From the NCBI GenBank assembly GCA_012841625.1, contig DUUI01000004.1:1-64000 (forward strand): DNA of 64,000 nucleotides, in the 5' to 3' direction. A model generated the notes under the pieces. That model did no database searches. It was not told where the DNA came from and saw only the letters and a program-made list of their open reading frames with translations. Within the stretch, counting starts at the first letter, position 1. The number at the start of each line of letters is the position of its first letter. Source of the stretch: Erysipelothrix sp. Lineage in GTDB: Bacteria; Bacillota_I; Bacilli_A; Erysipelotrichales; Erysipelotrichaceae. Below are positions 52,179-61,649 of the stretch, in pieces. The translations under genes and the position numbers were made by a program.

Positions 52179-52955
52179 TTAGAACTTAAATAATTTAATA
52201 ATCTCCAGTAATTCATTAAGAGCTTTCTGATTCGTTAAAATCCATTCACTATTCGATGGATATGTTATCAAATCACCCTTAAAGTCAACAAGCTTGTAGC
52301 CCAACTCAGAGGCGAAAATTACCGCAGGAGCAATATCCCATGCTTCACTCTTATGAAAGACTAGAGCAGCTAATTGGCCCTTAAAGAGCTTTATCGAATC
52401 CAAACCAGCAGATCCATAATATCTGAAACCAAAAGAAGACTCATAAAGTTTAGTATAGAAGCTCTCATTATCTTTAAAGTTGTAAGTAACACTCACTAAA
52501 CCCTCATTTAAACCCATTAGAAGTTGTTTAGGTAGTGGCTCATTATTCATAAAAGCCCCACTATCTTTTAATGACCAATAAACATCATCATTCACAATAT
52601 CATAAATAATCGCAAACTGACCAACACCCTGTTCAAAATACGAAATCATTGAACAGTAACCATCTCTCTGCTTAACAAAATTCGTTGTACCATCAATAGG
52701 ATCAATAAACCAACAGTTTGAGTCCTCATGATTACTCACACCATAGTCCCCTTCCTCTCCAATAATTAAATCCTCAGGAAAAGACTCTCTAATCTGTCCC
52801 ACTAAATATTCTTCAACCTTTGAATCAACCTGAGTAACAATATCATACTCATGTGACTTGGTAGAAATTTCTAGTCCAAGGTCTAACTCAGTCTCAACAA
52901 TCTCTTTAATTCTTGACAACCACGATTTTGTAAGCTCTAATTTTTTATTCATCAT
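52179..52955 (-). CDS. Inositol monophosphatase family phosphatase
   Basis: About 258 aa. Mg-dependent phosphatase motifs LIIGEEGDYG (Glu), WFIDPIDGTTNFVK (Asp-x-Ile-Asp-Gly-Thr) and KSEAWDIAPAVIFASELG (Trp-Asp). May act on inositol-1-phosphate, histidinol-phosphate or 3'-phosphoadenosine nucleotides; not resolved. Start ATG 52955 or 52952, both behind GAGGTG; TATAGT a little upstream suggests its own promoter beyond the rnf terminator. Confidence 0.88.
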   Translation of the reverse strand: MMNKKLELTKSWLSRIKEIVETELDLGLEISTKSHEYDIVTQVDSKVEEYLVGQIRESFPEDLIIGEEGDYGVSNHEDSNCWFIDPIDGTTNFVKQRDGYCSMISYFEQGVGQFAIIYDIVNDDVYWSLKDSGAFMNNEPLPKQLLMGLNEGLVSVTYNFKDNESFYTKLYESSFGFRYYGSAGLDSIKLFKGQLAALVFHKSEAWDIAPAVIFASELGYKLVDFKGDLITYPSNSEWILTNQKALNELLEIIKLFKF

Positions 52956-52983
52956 TTTGCACCTCAACTTTACTATACAAGAA

Positions 52984-53015
52984 AACAAAAGAAAAGATAA
53001 GGTTTTACCCTTATC
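52984..53015 (-). terminator. Terminator of the rnf operon, overlapping the rnfB stop
   Basis: Minus strand GATAAGG-GTAAAA-CCTTATC followed by TTTTCTTTTG; the rnfB TAA is in the hairpin, so nothing more can belong to this gene. Confidence 0.85.
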
Positions 53016-53328
53016 CTCTCACCACAAGTGTTTCTCCATCTAGTCCAGGAGTACTGGCAAGATAGTCAACAATTGAATTTCTTTGATCCTGATTACTAGG
53101 CGTACAACGTCTAACATCGTCTGTTTCTTTATCAACAAGAGCATTAGCCAGACCCTGACAACCAGGATAACCACAAGCTCCGCAGTTATATCCAGGAAGT
53201 AAGTTATGAACTTGTGCATACCTAGGATCCTCAATAACCTCAAATACTTTTGCTGCAAAAGCAAGCACTAAACCTAAAACAGCACCAATAGCTCCAATTA
53301 TAAGCATAGGTATTAAAATATCTTGCAT
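53011..53328 (-). CDS. rnfB: RnfB reduced to its N-terminal [4Fe-4S] part
   Basis: 105 aa. N-terminal membrane helix (about residues 5-26) and the RnfB-specific four-cysteine motif Cys49, 52, 57 (GYNCGACGYPGC) and Cys75. The protein ends at LVVRG, where typical RnfB continues for 150 or more residues with a ferredoxin domain holding two [4Fe-4S] clusters. The stop codon sits in the operon terminator and the next gene follows, so the missing part is not in another frame. RnfB normally passes electrons from ferredoxin into the complex. Coupled to the small Cys-rich gene upstream (TAG-ATG). Confidence 0.92.
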   Translation of the reverse strand: MQDILIPMLIIGAIGAVLGLVLAFAAKVFEVIEDPRYAQVHNLLPGYNCGACGYPGCQGLANALVDKETDDVRRCTPSNQDQRNSIVDYLASTPGLDGETLVVRG

Positions 53329-53508
53329 CTAATTTTCCTCATTTCTAGTACGACCATAGTGTCCACAGCTGACATCATGGCATGAACCACATTCAGCAAG
53401 TAAATGTTCACATCCCGCAGGAACACCAGTATTAGCGTTCTCAGAGAATGAAACAGAATACATGACAGTAAGTCCCACAATTAAAACTAATCCAAATAGA
53501 AAAGGCAT
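53329..53508 (-). CDS. 59-aa Cys-rich membrane protein within the rnf operon
   Basis: Starts at ATG 53508 overlapping the rnfA stop (TAATG) and ends TAG immediately before the rnfB ATG, filling the gap with no spare base. One membrane helix (about residues 2-21) and a polar tail with Cys33, 40, 43, 48; residues 40-44 read CGSCH, a CxxCH motif. Size and layout recall NqrM, which delivers iron to the NqrD/E site equivalent to RnfA/E, but the cysteine spacing differs. A small c-type heme protein is another reading; no cytochrome maturation genes are in the window. Confidence 0.7.
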   Translation of the reverse strand: MPFLFGLVLIVGLTVMYSVSFSENANTGVPAGCEHLLAECGSCHDVSCGHYGRTRNEEN

Positions 53509-54086
53509 TAAATAATCCCCGCCAATCCCGTAAATGCTAAAGCCATAATTGCCAATGTAATTAAAGCAATCGGCGAACCAAAGAAGGCTTTAGGAGTAGC
53601 AGAACTATCCAAACGCTCACGAATACTAGCAAAGATTACTAGAATCAACATAAAGCCCAAAGAAACTGCTGTTGAATAAACAAGCATTTCAACAAAATTA
53701 AATCCATTCACAATGTTTTCAAGAGCAACATATAAAACAACACAATTAGTTGTAATCAGTGGTAAAAAGATACCCAAACTCTTGTAAAGCGAAGGTGATG
53801 ACTTTTTAATAAACAACTCCGTAAATTGAACAAACGCCGCAATGATTAGAATAAAGACAAGTAAATCCATGTACTGTAAGTTTAGAGCAGTATCTAAAAT
53901 ATACTCATACACAGCCCACGTTAAGATAGAAGAGCCCACAATAACAAATAGAACCGCAAGACTCATCCCAATCGCAGACTTTAAGTTTCTAGAAACACCC
54001 ATCAACGGACACATTCCTAAGAACTTAGTCAATACAACGTTCTCAATAAAGATTGCCGCAAAAGCAATCGTAAGTAAATCAGCCAT
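53508..54086 (-). CDS. rnfA: Rnf complex subunit RnfA
   Basis: 192 aa, six membrane helices. The family cysteines that bind the intramembrane [2Fe-2S] cluster with RnfE are kept: Cys26 (FLGMCPLMG) and Cys115 (LITTNCVVLYV). Starts at the rnfE stop. Forms the core that moves electrons across the membrane. Confidence 0.97.
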   Translation of the reverse strand: MADLLTIAFAAIFIENVVLTKFLGMCPLMGVSRNLKSAIGMSLAVLFVIVGSSILTWAVYEYILDTALNLQYMDLLVFILIIAAFVQFTELFIKKSSPSLYKSLGIFLPLITTNCVVLYVALENIVNGFNFVEMLVYSTAVSLGFMLILVIFASIRERLDSSATPKAFFGSPIALITLAIMALAFTGLAGII

Positions 54087-54748
54087 TATTTAGCCCCCTT
54101 CTTAGCTTTAGCAGCCTTATGATTGGTATATCCAACATATGCCGCAATCACCGCAGCAAAGGTAATAAACGCCCCTGTCGGAGAACTAAATGTAGCAATA
54201 GTAAAAGTATCAGGAATAATTTGTAAAGAGAATAATGTCTCTAAACTTAACGGATTATACATTGAAATTGCTCCAGTCGCCAACAATTGACGGAAGAAAG
54301 CAATAATCACAATAATCATAGAATAACCAATACCCATTCCTAATCCATCTAAAAAAGAATCAAAAACAGAATTCTTACTCGCAAACGCTTCAGCACGACC
54401 AAGGATAATACAGTTAACAACAATTAACCCTAAGAAAGTACCTAGAGCATTATATAAAGATGGAACATAAGCATGTAAGAATAGATCCACTACCTTAACT
54501 AAAGTTGCGATAACAACAATATAAACAGGAATTCGGATATCATCTGGCGTAATATTTCTAATTAATGAAATAACTACATTTGAAGCAACAAGAACAAAGA
54601 TTACACATAACCCCATTCCAATCGCATTATTTAAATTAGTCGTAATAGCAAGGGTTGAACACAAACCTAACATTAAAACCAACACTGGGTTTTCTTTAAA
54701 GAATCCAGAAGTAAGTATATCGATACGACTACGTTTTGGTTGACTCAT
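54086..54748 (-). CDS. rnfE: Rnf complex subunit RnfE
   Basis: 220 aa, six membrane helices, paralogue of RnfA in inverted topology. Intramembrane cluster cysteines Cys30 (MLGLCSTLAIT) and Cys113 (IVVNCIILGRAEAFA) are kept. Basic C-terminus. 11 bases after rnfG. Confidence 0.97.
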   Translation of the reverse strand: MSQPKRSRIDILTSGFFKENPVLVLMLGLCSTLAITTNLNNAIGMGLCVIFVLVASNVVISLIRNITPDDIRIPVYIVVIATLVKVVDLFLHAYVPSLYNALGTFLGLIVVNCIILGRAEAFASKNSVFDSFLDGLGMGIGYSMIIVIIAFFRQLLATGAISMYNPLSLETLFSLQIIPDTFTIATFSSPTGAFITFAAVIAAYVGYTNHKAAKAKKGAK

Positions 54749-54759
54749 TCTAAATCCTC

Positions 54760-55653
54760 CTATTCTTGGTTTCTTGCATCTTCAACAGCAAGATTGACAG
54801 CCTTAATGACTGACTCAACGGTTTTAGTAGCACCTGAAACCCCATCGACTTCTGAAGGCATTTCATTAATATTCAAGCCCTCAAACTGACCTAAGAATTC
54901 AGGAGAATCTGCTTTATCACCCAATCCAACAGTGTCATTGAACTGCGTAAAGATAACCGATTCAATACTACCAGTAGCTAAATCAATTTTAATCTCATAT
55001 TCATTCGTTCCCACATAACCAACAGACTCGACAACATAAGTCATAACATCGCCCTCTTGATTTGTAGAAGTAATTGTATCACCCACTAAATCAGCTGTTG
55101 AAACTTGAGGTAAATCAGGCTCAACCTCTTCAGGTGTAGCAGTTGATCCAGTTAAAGAATTAAAGACAGTCACTGCAGCATCAACACCATTTTTAATAGC
55201 ATCAGAAGAAGCAGTAACACCAGAAATCATATCCACAGGATCGCTTGTTGATTTACCAGTCATCCCTTGATGATATTCATCTTCCATCAAACGCTGACCA
55301 AAACCAGGTGTATCATTATTACTTAAAATTTGAAACTTTGAATTGCTTCCATCAACATCATACCCAATTAAGAATACGATATCATCATCATATCCACGAG
55401 CCGCAACTTGAAAGACATAAGCATCTTCATCGACTTTATAAGCCTCTCTCACTAATCCATCAGCATCAGCTTCAAATTCAATAGCCTCAAAACTTGAAGC
55501 ATAAGGATAAAGTTTTTCAATCTCAGCCGTTTGAGCACCTGCTTCATTAGCAGCAATAATTGGCGCAGTAACAGAGTTAACAGCAGCCAAGACGCCAGTC
55601 GCTAAAGCAGAGATAATAGCTAAAAACAAAGTAAGTTTAACTGTTTTATTCAT
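54760..55653 (-). CDS. rnfG: RnfG with two FMN-binding domains
   Basis: 297 aa against about 200 for usual RnfG. N-terminal membrane helix (about residues 6-28), first FMN-binding domain ending in MISGVTASSDAIKNG (attachment Thr147, motif SGVT in place of SGAT), a Pro/Glu-rich linker (about 172-184), then a second domain ending in VDGVSGATKTVESVIKA (Thr276, canonical SGAT). Both domains face outside. ApbE, encoded divergently, would attach FMN through a phosphoester to these threonines. Confidence 0.93.
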   Translation of the reverse strand: MNKTVKLTLFLAIISALATGVLAAVNSVTAPIIAANEAGAQTAEIEKLYPYASSFEAIEFEADADGLVREAYKVDEDAYVFQVAARGYDDDIVFLIGYDVDGSNSKFQILSNNDTPGFGQRLMEDEYHQGMTGKSTSDPVDMISGVTASSDAIKNGVDAAVTVFNSLTGSTATPEEVEPDLPQVSTADLVGDTITSTNQEGDVMTYVVESVGYVGTNEYEIKIDLATGSIESVIFTQFNDTVGLGDKADSPEFLGQFEGLNINEMPSEVDGVSGATKTVESVIKAVNLAVEDARNQE

Positions 55654-57050
55654 TATTGACCTCCATGTTCAGCAGCCGCAGCCTTAACTGCCTCAAGCAC
55701 TGAATTAGAACTGAATGTAGCAGAGTTTGACGTATCAACATCAATTTCACTCACTACATCGAGACCAACAAATTGAGATAAGAAATCATCTGATCGAGCC
55801 GGAGCACCCTCAGCATCTGAGTCAGCAAACTTCTCAAATGAAACAGATTCAACTGTCCCATCACCAGAAATTTGAACCAACACAATATTCTTATCACCTG
55901 CATTAAAGCCCTTTGATTCAACACGATAGACTTTAGAGCTACCCTCATCAGTCACATCTAAAACACTTACATTTTCATCCTGAGCAGAAACAACTTGAAC
56001 AACATTTCCAGCAAGAGTTGAAAATAATACTGCAACAACAGCCACTCCAGCTAGACTCATCATGGCTTTCTTATAAGTTTTAATTTGATTACCAGCTAAT
56101 AGATAATCAATCATTGGAACTAAAATATTCATTAACACAATCGCAAAGACGACTCCACCAGGAGTTTGTCCAAATAAACGAATGATAAATGTTAAGATAG
56201 CAGCCCCAACCCCAAAGATAGCTCGTCCAACAGGATGAACAGGAGATGTCACTGGATCAGTTAACATAAAGACAGCACCAAAGATAGCTCCTCCATTAAT
56301 GACTTGGAATAAGCCATAACTTAAATCCATACCACCAATAAGAGCAAACACAAGACCCATAACAAATAAAGTAATTAAATAAGAAATTGTAATTCTCCAG
56401 TCAATAACTTGACGCACAATTAAAACAACACCAAGAATTAACATCAGAATAGCAGGTGTTTCTCCAATCGCACCAGGATGCCAACCAGTCAATAAACCAG
56501 TCCAACCACCAAAGCCTTCAAGAAACTTCTCAAAGCCACCAGCAGCAACTGTCCATGACTGTGCATTAACACTTGAAACAGGAGTAGCTCCCACAGCTAA
56601 ATCAGCCAGTGTATGACCACCAAAGGCAGTCACAAGAACAATCCGACCAACGCCTGCTGGGTTGAAGATATTTTGTCCAAATCCACCAAAAGCCAATTTA
56701 CCAATAAAAATAGCAAATGCGGTTGAGATAACTATTGGATATATTTGTACATTCACTGATGTGATCAAAACAAGAATGATCGAAGTTATATAAGGATATG
56801 AAGAAGATAAATGTTTCTTAATATCCTTCTTTGTAGCAACCGCATATAAAACTTCAATCGCATAAGCTGTGATTAATGACGCAGCTAACATTGTCAGAAT
56901 ATGAATAACATAATTTAATCCATATTCCATTTGATAATAAACTAAACTAAATGCTAGTACAGCAAGTAAAGCGATTAACAGTTCAAACATAATTTGAGAG
57001 GTTGTTCGCTTAATCTTAATACTAGGCGCGAATCTAAATTTATAATCCAT
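55653..57050 (-). CDS. rnfD: RnfD with an extra C-terminal FMN-binding-like domain
   Basis: 465 aa against about 320-350 for the family. Residues 1-350 are the membrane subunit, with the internal flavin site DLAVGATPVS (Thr156) and the family's FNPAGVGR and VFMLTDPVTSPVHPVGR. Residues 355-465 add an extracytoplasmic domain with the fold pattern of FMN_bind (VYRVESKGFNAGDKNIVLVQ, DDFLSQFVGLDVV). It ends in DTSNSATFSSNSVLEAV, where the SGAT attachment motif is degenerate (SAT, Thr445). Whether it still binds flavin is open. Confidence 0.92.
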   Translation of the reverse strand: MDYKFRFAPSIKIKRTTSQIMFELLIALLAVLAFSLVYYQMEYGLNYVIHILTMLAASLITAYAIEVLYAVATKKDIKKHLSSSYPYITSIILVLITSVNVQIYPIVISTAFAIFIGKLAFGGFGQNIFNPAGVGRIVLVTAFGGHTLADLAVGATPVSSVNAQSWTVAAGGFEKFLEGFGGWTGLLTGWHPGAIGETPAILMLILGVVLIVRQVIDWRITISYLITLFVMGLVFALIGGMDLSYGLFQVINGGAIFGAVFMLTDPVTSPVHPVGRAIFGVGAAILTFIIRLFGQTPGGVVFAIVLMNILVPMIDYLLAGNQIKTYKKAMMSLAGVAVVAVLFSTLAGNVVQVVSAQDENVSVLDVTDEGSSKVYRVESKGFNAGDKNIVLVQISGDGTVESVSFEKFADSDAEGAPARSDDFLSQFVGLDVVSEIDVDTSNSATFSSNSVLEAVKAAAAEHGGQ

Positions 57051-57056
57051 TATGTC

Positions 57057-58349
57057 TTACCCCTTTCTCAAACGTAATGCATTTTTAGCACGACGCATGT
57101 TTTCTGTTACATCAATCTTAGATGGACATACATAAGTACAAAGCCCACACTCGATACATGCATTGGTATCTAATTTTTCAATCATGTCTAAATTCTTAGC
57201 TATTTCAGCATCCTGAATCTTAACCGGAATTAATCCTGCCGGGCAATTATCAACACAGGCTGCACAACGCAAACATCCAATCGCATCTACTTTACGCTCA
57301 ATGAGAACGGTTAATGCATTGGAAGTAAAATTAATGGTCACATTCTTTGAAAGCATAGTTTTACCCATCATAGGTCCACCATGAATAACATGAACGTTTT
57401 CATCAGTAGTACCACCACAGGCTTCAACAATATCCCCAATCGGTGTACCAATTTTCGCTAAGACATTTCGTGGTTCCTTAATTCCATCACCAGAAACAGT
57501 AATCATTTTCTCAGTAATAGGAACTCCTAATCTAAAGGCTCTAGAAACCATAATCGCAGTCGTCGCATTATTAACAACAGCTCCAATTTCACTTGGAAGT
57601 CTGTCATAACGTTTCTTTAATAATTCAAAGACTAATGTTCTTTCCCATCCCATTGGATAGACATTTGGAACACCAACAACCTCAATGTCACTAAATCCAC
57701 CAAAGGCTTCTTTAAGACGAGCAATTGTTTGTTTCTTATCTTCCTTAATAGCCACTAATGTTTTTTGAACATTACCAGCTTTTCTAAGAATATGAACACC
57801 ATTAACAAGATCCTCTAAATAATCGTTTACATTACGATAATCTTGAGTGATATATGGTTCACATTCCACCGCATTAATAATTAAATAAGGTGTTTCTGTC
57901 ATCGGTTTGTATTTCAAATAAGCCGGGAAACCAGCTCCACCACATCCGACAATACCCATTTCTTTAATGTGCTCGATGATTTCATCTTTACTAGCACTTA
58001 CATAATCTAAAGGTGTTGGGGCAACAGCCTCATATTGATTATCGTTTTCGATTACAATATGTTTAGACTTACGACCACCCCAGCCGTGAAACTCATCCTT
58101 AAACCCAGTAACAGTGCCAGATACAGGTGAAAACAGAGGAATCACAAAATGGTCATTTCTTGCGGCAATCTTTTGATTGACTAAAACACGGTCACCCTCT
58201 TTGACATAAAGTTCTAAATTAGTTGAGCCCATCGCCATTAAAGGAATAGCGATTTCCTTAGGAGTCTCAATATTTAGAATTTCGTTATGGTCAGTAAGTT
58301 CTTTAAAACCGGGTATATGTTTACGCAAAGGTCCTAATAAAAAAGACAT
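57057..58349 (-). CDS. rnfC: Rnf complex subunit RnfC
   Basis: 430 aa, complete. N-terminal part with a biotinyl-like SPVSGTVTGF hairpin, NADH/FMN-binding domain (GIVGCGGAGFPAYLKY, INAVECEPYIT) and two [4Fe-4S] motifs, CLRCAACVDNCP and CIECGLCTYVCP. Oxidises or reduces NAD on the cytoplasmic side. First gene of the operon. Confidence 0.97.
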   Translation of the reverse strand: MSFLLGPLRKHIPGFKELTDHNEILNIETPKEIAIPLMAMGSTNLELYVKEGDRVLVNQKIAARNDHFVIPLFSPVSGTVTGFKDEFHGWGGRKSKHIVIENDNQYEAVAPTPLDYVSASKDEIIEHIKEMGIVGCGGAGFPAYLKYKPMTETPYLIINAVECEPYITQDYRNVNDYLEDLVNGVHILRKAGNVQKTLVAIKEDKKQTIARLKEAFGGFSDIEVVGVPNVYPMGWERTLVFELLKKRYDRLPSEIGAVVNNATTAIMVSRAFRLGVPITEKMITVSGDGIKEPRNVLAKIGTPIGDIVEACGGTTDENVHVIHGGPMMGKTMLSKNVTINFTSNALTVLIERKVDAIGCLRCAACVDNCPAGLIPVKIQDAEIAKNLDMIEKLDTNACIECGLCTYVCPSKIDVTENMRRAKNALRLRKG

Positions 58350-58371
58350 AACTACTTCTCTCCTTCTACTC

Positions 58372-58479
58372 GTTGTTTAACAACTACGTATTTTATTATA
58401 CCACGCTAACTTAATTAAAAAACCATAAATTTAGGATTTAATGTATATTTAATTAAAAAGTCAAGAAATATGCTATAAT
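58372..58479. promoter_or_regulatory. Divergent promoters of rnf and apbE with a palindrome in the rnf leader
   Basis: Minus strand: TGG-TATAAT (hexamer 58400..58395) for rnf, with the perfect 13-base palindrome GTTGTTTAACAAC (58372-58384) in the untranslated region. Plus strand: TGC-TATAAT (hexamer 58474-58479) for apbE, followed by GAGGTGATT. Shared intergenic region suggests joint control. Confidence 0.7.
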
Positions 58480-58494
58480 TCTCGAGGTGATTAT

Positions 58495-59631
58495 ATGAGA
58501 AAGAGTCTAACTATCGTCCTATTAGGACTATTAATATTAACAGGTTGTACAAGTAAACCAGAGTATCAGCGATATCAAGCAGATACCTCAACAAGTGGTT
58601 TTGATACTAAAATTACTCTAATGGCTTATACAACAAGCGAATCTGAGTTTACAAAATACTTCGATCGAATGAAAGAATTGTATTATGAATACAATATTCT
58701 TTTTGATAAATACAACAATTATGAAGGCATCAACAATCTAAAAACGATTAATGATATGGCAGGAAAAGAAGCAGTTGAAGTTGACCAAAGAATCATAGAT
58801 ACTTTAGTATTATCTAGAGAAGAATTTGACAATAACAAAGGCAAATTCGATATCACAATGGGATCTGTTTTAAGTATCTGGCACGACTATCGAGAAGATG
58901 GATTAATTGCAAATTACAGCAACGAACCAGGTGAAGTACCACCCCTAGAGATGCTTCAAGAAGCAAAAGAATGCACAGGTTGGGATTTAATTGAGATAGA
59001 TGATGAGAAAAACACCGTCTATTTAACAAAAGACTGTGCTTCACTAGATTTAGGGGGTCTTGCTAAAGGATACGCAACCCAAGAAATTATGGATATATTA
59101 GCAGAAGAAGGCTTAACTCACTTCAGCATTAATGCCGGTGGCAATGTTAAAGTGTATGACTTAAAACCAGATGGTTCAGGATGGAATATAGCAGTAGGAG
59201 AACCCTCTCTAATCGTTATAGATCAATATGCAGACATTCTAAGAATTAACGAGGAACTTTCAATTGTAGCATCAGGTGATTATCAACGATATTACATCGG
59301 ACCAAATGATGAAACCTATCATCATTTAATCGATCCTGATTCATTATTCCCGCTACATCATTTTAGAAAAGTAACAGTCGTTATGGAAGATTCAACTTAT
59401 GCTGATATGTACTCAACCGTATTATTCTTACTTCCTTATGAAGAAGGTGTTTTATGGATCAAAGAACACAACGAAAGAAACCCTCATCTTCATCTAGAAG
59501 CACACTGGGTCATTGATATAGACAACGAAGAATACAAAGATCATCCTGATTTTATGAGTATTCCTGAAAAACCATACAAAATAGCAATGACAGATGGACT
59601 AAGAGAAATGTCCCATGTCGTTACCCCATAA
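58495..59631 (+). CDS. apbE: FAD:protein FMN transferase ApbE (lipoprotein)
   Basis: 378 aa. Lipobox ILTGCTSK at Cys18 places it on the outer face of the membrane. ApbE core: GFDTKITLMAY, FDITMGSVLSIWHDY, LDLGGLAKGYATQEI, FSINAGGNV and the metal-binding STYADMYST. Transfers FMN from FAD to Thr of SGAT motifs, so RnfG and RnfD are its likely targets. Divergent from the rnf operon. The C-terminal 30 residues extend beyond the family core. Confidence 0.95.
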   Translation: MRKSLTIVLLGLLILTGCTSKPEYQRYQADTSTSGFDTKITLMAYTTSESEFTKYFDRMKELYYEYNILFDKYNNYEGINNLKTINDMAGKEAVEVDQRIIDTLVLSREEFDNNKGKFDITMGSVLSIWHDYREDGLIANYSNEPGEVPPLEMLQEAKECTGWDLIEIDDEKNTVYLTKDCASLDLGGLAKGYATQEIMDILAEEGLTHFSINAGGNVKVYDLKPDGSGWNIAVGEPSLIVIDQYADILRINEELSIVASGDYQRYYIGPNDETYHHLIDPDSLFPLHHFRKVTVVMEDSTYADMYSTVLFLLPYEEGVLWIKEHNERNPHLHLEAHWVIDIDNEEYKDHPDFMSIPEKPYKIAMTDGLREMSHVVTP

Positions 59632-61418: not shown

Positions 61419-61649
61419 ATGACATTAGAAGAAAAAGTAATCTACACACTAAATAAAATCAGACCATATATCCAAGGTGATGGAGGAGATGTTGCCTTTG
61501 ACCGTATTGATGATGACGGAGTTGTCTACGTGAACTTGCTAGGAGCTTGTGTAGGCTGTGGTTTAGCGGATGTTACAGTTAAAATGGGAATAGAGGCTAT
61601 CCTCATGGATGAAATTCCTGAAGTAACTGAAGTACGAGTTGTAGAATAA
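61419..61649 (+). CDS. NifU C-terminal domain protein (iron-sulfur scaffold)
   Basis: 76 aa. Nfu domain with the cluster-binding CVGC in VNLLGACVGCGLADVTVKMG. Carries [4Fe-4S] clusters to targets; the Rnf subunits are possible clients. TTATAATAA promoter element upstream. Confidence 0.92.
   Translation: MTLEEKVIYTLNKIRPYIQGDGGDVAFDRIDDDGVVYVNLLGACVGCGLADVTVKMGIEAILMDEIPEVTEVRVVE

Follow-up and report, generated by a model that had tools for sequence, protein, structure and literature searches.

The window, a 64,000-nucleotide stretch of contig DUUI01000004.1 from Erysipelothrix sp., encodes an RNF complex, a central energy converter of anaerobes, in which RnfB is reduced to a membrane helix and a single iron-sulfur domain and the operon contains a small additional gene, hereafter X. 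We find that the miniature RnfB (mini-RnfB), X and an extra transmembrane helix on RnfD mark one clade comprising Erysipelotrichaceae, Acholeplasmataceae, Anaeroplasmataceae and Izemoplasma genomes. We somewhat favor the reading that mini-RnfB RNF is a distinct, class-wide subtype, likely a ferredoxin:NAD+ pump on which ferredoxin docks directly, with X most likely serving as an assembly factor. The class in question, which includes gut Erysipelotrichaceae and their relatives (human gut species among them) as well as Acholeplasma-like and Izemoplasma-like bacteria, runs RNF without the multi-cluster domain of RnfB and with an unnamed partner protein. It is a natural minimal system for asking which purpose the large RnfB domain serves and whether RNF, as NQR seems to do, requires a dedicated factor for its intramembrane [2Fe-2S] cluster.

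The operon lies on the minus strand in the order rnfC-D-G-E-A-X-B, with apbE divergent, and encodes all six subunits of the RNF core (RnfA, B, C, D, E and G). Profile searches with Pfam and NCBIfam gave clear identifications of RnfA, RnfC, RnfE and ApbE, while RnfB was recognised through its N-terminal region alone. They confirmed the genes and the arrangement described by the first-pass annotation, an earlier reading of the letters of this DNA, and the new cysteine-rich membrane gene that it had pointed out is real. The features are as follows.

58495..59631, plus strand: apbE, 378 amino acids (aa), lipoprotein flavin transferase (PF02424, E 2e-59; lipobox LTGC)
57057..58349, minus strand: rnfC, 430 aa, NADH/FMN domain, SLBB and two [4Fe-4S] motifs (TIGR01945, E 5e-113; PF01512, PF13375, PF10531)
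55653..57050, minus strand: rnfD, 465 aa, core with flavin Thr156 (PF03116, NQR2_RnfD_RnfE, E 6e-72)
55983..56069, minus strand: extra C-terminal transmembrane helix of RnfD, approximately residues 328–356 (hydrophobicity comparison of short and long types)
55656..55982, minus strand: extra FMN_bind domain of RnfD, residues 357–465, candidate Thr445 (PF04205, E 6e-4; AlphaFold2 with Foldseek; alignment)
54760..55653, minus strand: rnfG, 297 aa, two FMN_bind domains (75–162 and 198–292) with Thr147 and Thr276 (PF04205 in two stretches, E 7e-23)
54086..54748, minus strand: rnfE, 220 aa, C30 and C113 of the intramembrane [2Fe-2S] site (TIGR01948; alignment to solved RnfE)
53508..54086, minus strand: rnfA, 192 aa, C26 and C115 of the intramembrane [2Fe-2S] site (TIGR01943; alignment to solved RnfA)
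53329..53508, minus strand: gene X, 59 aa, one transmembrane helix followed by a cysteine-rich tail (31-member alignment)
53011..53328, minus strand: miniature rnfB, 105 aa, transmembrane helix and a single [4Fe-4S] domain with C49, C52, C57 and C75 (PF04060)

Known RNFs take electrons from ferredoxin on a C-terminal RnfB domain with 2–7 clusters, and a flexible one-cluster RnfB domain passes them to the [2Fe-2S] of RnfA/E (PMC12174285). Within the 105 aa of the window's RnfB, PF04060 matches residues 44–77, TIGR01944 is covered at positions 3–91 of 190, and alignment to solved RnfB chains (174–333 aa) is confined to residues 1–79 of those chains, with end points at 66–79. Compared with these chains, the C-terminal multi-cluster, ferredoxin-accepting domain is missing, as the first-pass annotation had claimed, and we therefore class the complex as a non-standard variant of RNF. 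The rest of the assembly (1.37 Mb, 97% complete, 85 contigs) contains no second RnfB-type iron-sulfur domain: the short RnfB is the sole PF04060 match in the genome, and the full-length RnfB elsewhere that would have refuted the first-pass reading was not found. In 80 short-type loci, no ferredoxin-like partner gene recurs in the neighborhood of the operon. A neighboring ferredoxin as a stand-in for the lost domain was rejected, with 55-aa two-cluster ferredoxins 5–6 kb away in two loci only (L153 and L167). Across the class, and also in the isolate Holdemanella biformis DSM 3989, the short RnfB varies little in length, its cysteines are invariant and its tail is conserved.

The remainder of the core resembles the RNFs of Clostridium tetanomorphum, Acetobacterium woodii and Azotobacter vinelandii (PDB 7zc6, 9eri and 8ahx). 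The clostridial gene order rnfCDGEAB is common to both, and shared elements include RnfA, RnfE and RnfC, the cores of RnfD and RnfG, the RnfB transmembrane helix with its flexible one-cluster domain, and the ApbE partner. RnfC is of the ordinary type, and 77 of 78 short-type RnfC proteins carry two CxxCxxCxxxC motifs. All four intramembrane [2Fe-2S] ligands of the solved complexes are present, aligning with RnfA C26 and C115 and RnfE C30 and C113. By contrast, the solved RnfBs possess the C-terminal domain with 2–7 further [4Fe-4S] clusters that mini-RnfB lacks, and known RNFs have no X gene, no extra RnfD helix and no FMN domain on RnfD.

To place the variant among its relatives we compared about 120 operons, made up of rnf loci of related and of named genomes; operons of family f9, whose RnfB (183–192 aa) has two PF04060 domains, were tallied as short type. 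Within the named set, every one of the 21 loci with an RnfB of 89–131 aa has X, placed between rnfA and rnfB, and X is missing from all the others, whose RnfB has 263–508 aa. Named carriers of both mini-RnfB and X include Holdemanella biformis DSM 3989, Candidatus Stoquefichus, Solobacterium, Acholeplasma, Anaeroplasmataceae and Candidatus Izemoplasma. A tree of RnfC, RnfE and RnfA from 119 loci contains a branch of 100% support that parts all 73 short-type from 44 long-type loci (class and family names were inferred from named records; identical RnfC/E/A rows are L085 = G017 and L086 = G021). The extra hydrophobic C-terminal helix of RnfD, the third hallmark of the clade, follows the same division (77/80 short-type versus 0/54 long-type).

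Class-wide, across 296 genomes, X was found in 138 of 168 with a PF04060 match versus 3 of 128 without one. The 30 genomes with PF04060 but no X include some whose only listed match is a 386–579-aa protein that is not RnfB, as well as genomes of family f17, in which X is close to the limit of detection. All X-positive genomes in a sample of the phylum (115/115) belong to the window's class. Clostridium viride lacks X and has an RnfB of 332–341 aa; among the roughly 150 RnfB frames listed for 389 Clostridia genomes, a census of best matches only, all are at least 226 aa long except one of 143 aa, a match near a contig end. The search for X in a Bacteroidia class sample (247 genomes) gave four weak partial matches only. 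Two loci of a sister family (L069 and L070, genomes G059 and G050) have a long-type operon with an RnfB of 261–263 aa and no X; this RNF was probably acquired by horizontal replacement, as it groups with Synergistes and the long types of other phyla.

Published genome descriptions of these bacteria report a complete RNF, and the Peloplasma paper names the operon clostridial rnfCDGEAB; the locus tags quoted there omit a number immediately ahead of the final rnf gene, a gap that an unlisted X would explain. We found no paper on point about a short or truncated RnfB, and the combination of mini-RnfB with X seems undescribed so far.

Ferredoxin metabolism is kept in the source genome, which encodes a Fer4-motif protein of 1177 aa consistent with PFOR; a 2-oxoacid:ferredoxin oxidoreductase along with its small Fer4 subunit; at least one stand-alone 2[4Fe-4S] ferredoxin, of 58 aa; and four [FeFe]-hydrogenase matches. 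Within the class, 136 of 141 genomes that carry X also have POR, versus 97 of 155 others. Because PFOR, ferredoxins and hydrogenases are retained and POR is near-universal where X occurs, ferredoxin probably remains the natural donor, and this genomic context makes ion-coupled ferredoxin:NAD+ oxidoreductase activity still the most likely function. In the mechanism that we propose, PFOR and other 2-oxoacid oxidoreductases would reduce a soluble 2[4Fe-4S] ferredoxin, which would dock directly on the membrane-tethered one-cluster domain of RnfB, or at the interface of RnfB with RnfA/E and X. Such docking, the simplest mechanism for mini-RnfB, would replace the multi-cluster C-terminal domain used by known RNFs. 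From RnfB, electrons would move on to the intramembrane [2Fe-2S] cluster in RnfA/E and then via the RnfG and RnfD flavins to RnfC, where NAD+ would be reduced.

X follows the pattern N-x2-T-x2-P-x-GC-x6-C-x2-C-x4-C after one transmembrane helix. In the 31-member alignment N24, T27, P30, C40, C43 and C48 are invariant, and G32 and C33 nearly so. The protein falls in no accepted Pfam, NCBIfam or PHROG family and has no PDB match, and its AlphaFold2 model consists of a helix (residues 2–25) and a low-confidence tail. In 73 X proteins, 183 lysine or arginine residues follow the helix versus 53 before it, so the cysteine tail is probably cytosolic. We considered folding X and RnfB as a single read-through chain and dropped this idea because the joined termini are expected on opposite sides of the membrane.

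Na+-NQR offers a precedent, as it likewise has no RnfB multi-cluster domain (its input is NqrF, with NADH as donor) and has a small membrane protein, NqrM (PF04400), encoded beside homologous membrane subunits and thought to serve iron-sulfur insertion. NQR seems to need NqrM to insert its intramembrane cluster (PMC12174285). X may have a similar role, helping to insert iron or a cluster into RnfA/E; this maturation hypothesis draws on analogy with NqrM (a similar general build, encoded beside the same membrane subunits) and not on homology. On that analogy, assembly of the intramembrane [2Fe-2S] is the most likely function of X, and the main alternative is an additional iron-sulfur subunit on the input side. 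In families f17, f22, f6 and f4, X lies outside the rnf operon, within an unrelated housekeeping operon of genomes that still bear rnf, an arrangement that suits a trans-acting factor without proving one. Neighbors of the unlinked X, judged from their sequences, include aspartyl-tRNA synthetase-like and deaminase-like proteins, and no iron genes are evident among them.

Several points weigh against a ferredoxin-fed pump with X as its assembly factor. The tree shows a single origin for the association of short RnfB with X; the counts above thus measure retention and shared inheritance and not independent origins or a proven interaction. PF04400 matches none of the 31 X members at E values up to 1, and the most frequent resemblance, a weak one, is instead to FeoB_associated (PF12669; 8/31 members, best E 0.008), although the X of the window itself has no PF12669 match. 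The two share a short transmembrane helix and a cysteine-rich tail; X differs in its conserved N-x2-T-x2-P-x-GC motif and its association with rnf. Ferredoxin metabolism in the genome is no proof that this RNF uses ferredoxin, and the papers found contain no biochemistry of any member of the mini-RnfB clade.

The strongest rival, which we consider possible but distinctly less probable, is that X stays in the complex as a redox or docking subunit, whose three or four cysteines would hold a metal centre near the cytosolic face and so form with the RnfB domain a split input module replacing the lost one. X occurs with mini-RnfB and not with full-length RnfB, its gene sits between rnfA and rnfB in most lineages, three of its cysteines are invariant, and its tail is probably cytosolic. 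However, some f17 members lack the first X cysteine and four families have X outside the operon, a pattern more characteristic of a factor than of a stoichiometric redox subunit; only about 25–30 residues are available for a metal site, and the AlphaFold2 tail is of low confidence. Extended further, the idea yields a third electron-input module of the RNF/NQR superfamily, in which mini-RnfB and a metal-binding X would make up a split module that lets free ferredoxin feed the pump directly throughout the class; in many members a new RnfD helix would, in addition, carry flavin domains outside the cell. We regard this as a tentative proposal.

The first-pass annotation had joined the RnfB loss, a gain of flavins and the cysteine-rich gene into one functional shift. 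Its four candidate FMN threonines all lie exactly where it had placed them: RnfD T156 (VGATPV) and T445 (SNSATFS), and RnfG T147 (SGVTAS) and T276 (SGATKT). The T156 column of 134 RnfD proteins holds threonine in 128 and serine in 6. In RnfD the FMN_bind match (residues 390–459) falls just below the Pfam cut-off, at 20.8 versus 22 bits. The AlphaFold2 model of this C-terminal domain (pLDDT 83) nonetheless has the FMN_bind fold whose lack would have counted against the claim, with NqrC and RnfG as its best PDB matches (Foldseek probability 1.00). The NSAT motif at T445 is weaker and atypical, most relatives having SGAT or TGAT; a covalent flavin there is likely. FMN attachment to RnfD and RnfG by ApbE is predicted from the motifs and the presence of apbE, and the extra RnfD helix would place the C-terminus outside the membrane, the site of the added FMN domains.

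The proposed coupling itself did not hold up. Of the 69 short-type operons that are complete, 29 are limited to the usual two flavin sites (for example Holdemanella biformis); RnfD bears one to three additional FMN domains in 33, and RnfG has two or three FMN domains in 15, whereas 50 of 51 long-type operons have no extra FMN domains. A search of relatives for the same losses and gains, a check proposed by the first-pass annotation, showed the short RnfB to be essentially fixed in the clade and the extra FMN domains to come and go. RnfB reduction and flavin expansion are separate matters; the idea that the extra domains are a cause or companion of the reduction is rejected for this lack of coupling, and they form a separate, variable elaboration outside the membrane. 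Multi-flavinylated RnfG is already known, and a 2021 publication describes it together with a possible side path to external acceptors (eLife 2021 e66878). As in that work and a later study (mSystems 2024 e00375-24), RnfG here has more than one FMN_bind domain; RnfD here also bears one, and the available portions of the two papers make no mention of an FMN domain on RnfD or of the RnfB/X difference.

These domains bear on the annotation's further suggestion that the complex draws electrons mainly from NADH through RnfC and passes part of them by way of the additional flavins to an acceptor that is external or in the membrane. The extra FMN domains outside the membrane are real, and the 2021 paper proposes an outward electron leak for multi-flavinylated RnfG (eLife 2021 e66878). 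However, we judge this route improbable: the extra flavins are missing from 29 of the 69 operons with the same mini-RnfB, the RnfB to RnfA/E path is intact, RnfC is ordinary, and PFOR and ferredoxins are kept, with POR nearly universal beside X. Finally, although the genome is fragmented, a truncated, decaying or mis-assembled rnfB in this metagenome-assembled genome is refuted as an explanation by conservation of the short form in more than 70 loci across the class, including the Holdemanella isolate.

A few loci depart from the common pattern. Family f9 has a second way to rebuild the input side, an RnfB of 183–192 aa with two tandem PF04060 iron-sulfur domains behind one membrane helix (L183:7125-7688, L184:6452-7030, L185:7004-7558 and L186:7282-7833); a second X gene lies close by in L183. 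Genome G008, which has a mini-RnfB operon, also carries a second RnfA/RnfE/RnfD-like set at L068:6968-9783 with no recognised RnfB, RnfC or RnfG, and in genome G213 (L188) second RnfD-, RnfG- and RnfE-like genes lie directly downstream of the mini-RnfB operon and apbE. RnfG-like proteins of 831–835 aa occur in L128 and L107; the L128 protein has seven FMN_bind domains and belongs to a Clostridia operon whose RnfB is full-length. Where X is unlinked (L172–L179; families f17, f6, f4 and f22), it neighbors a deaminase-like gene or is flanked by phosphoglucomutase-like and uracil-DNA-glycosylase-like genes. Around the window's operon we read from the sequence an inositol-monophosphatase-like protein (269 aa, 52179-52988) downstream of rnfB, which is not a ferredoxin, and, further upstream, a NifU-like 76-aa protein with a CxxC motif (61419-61649).

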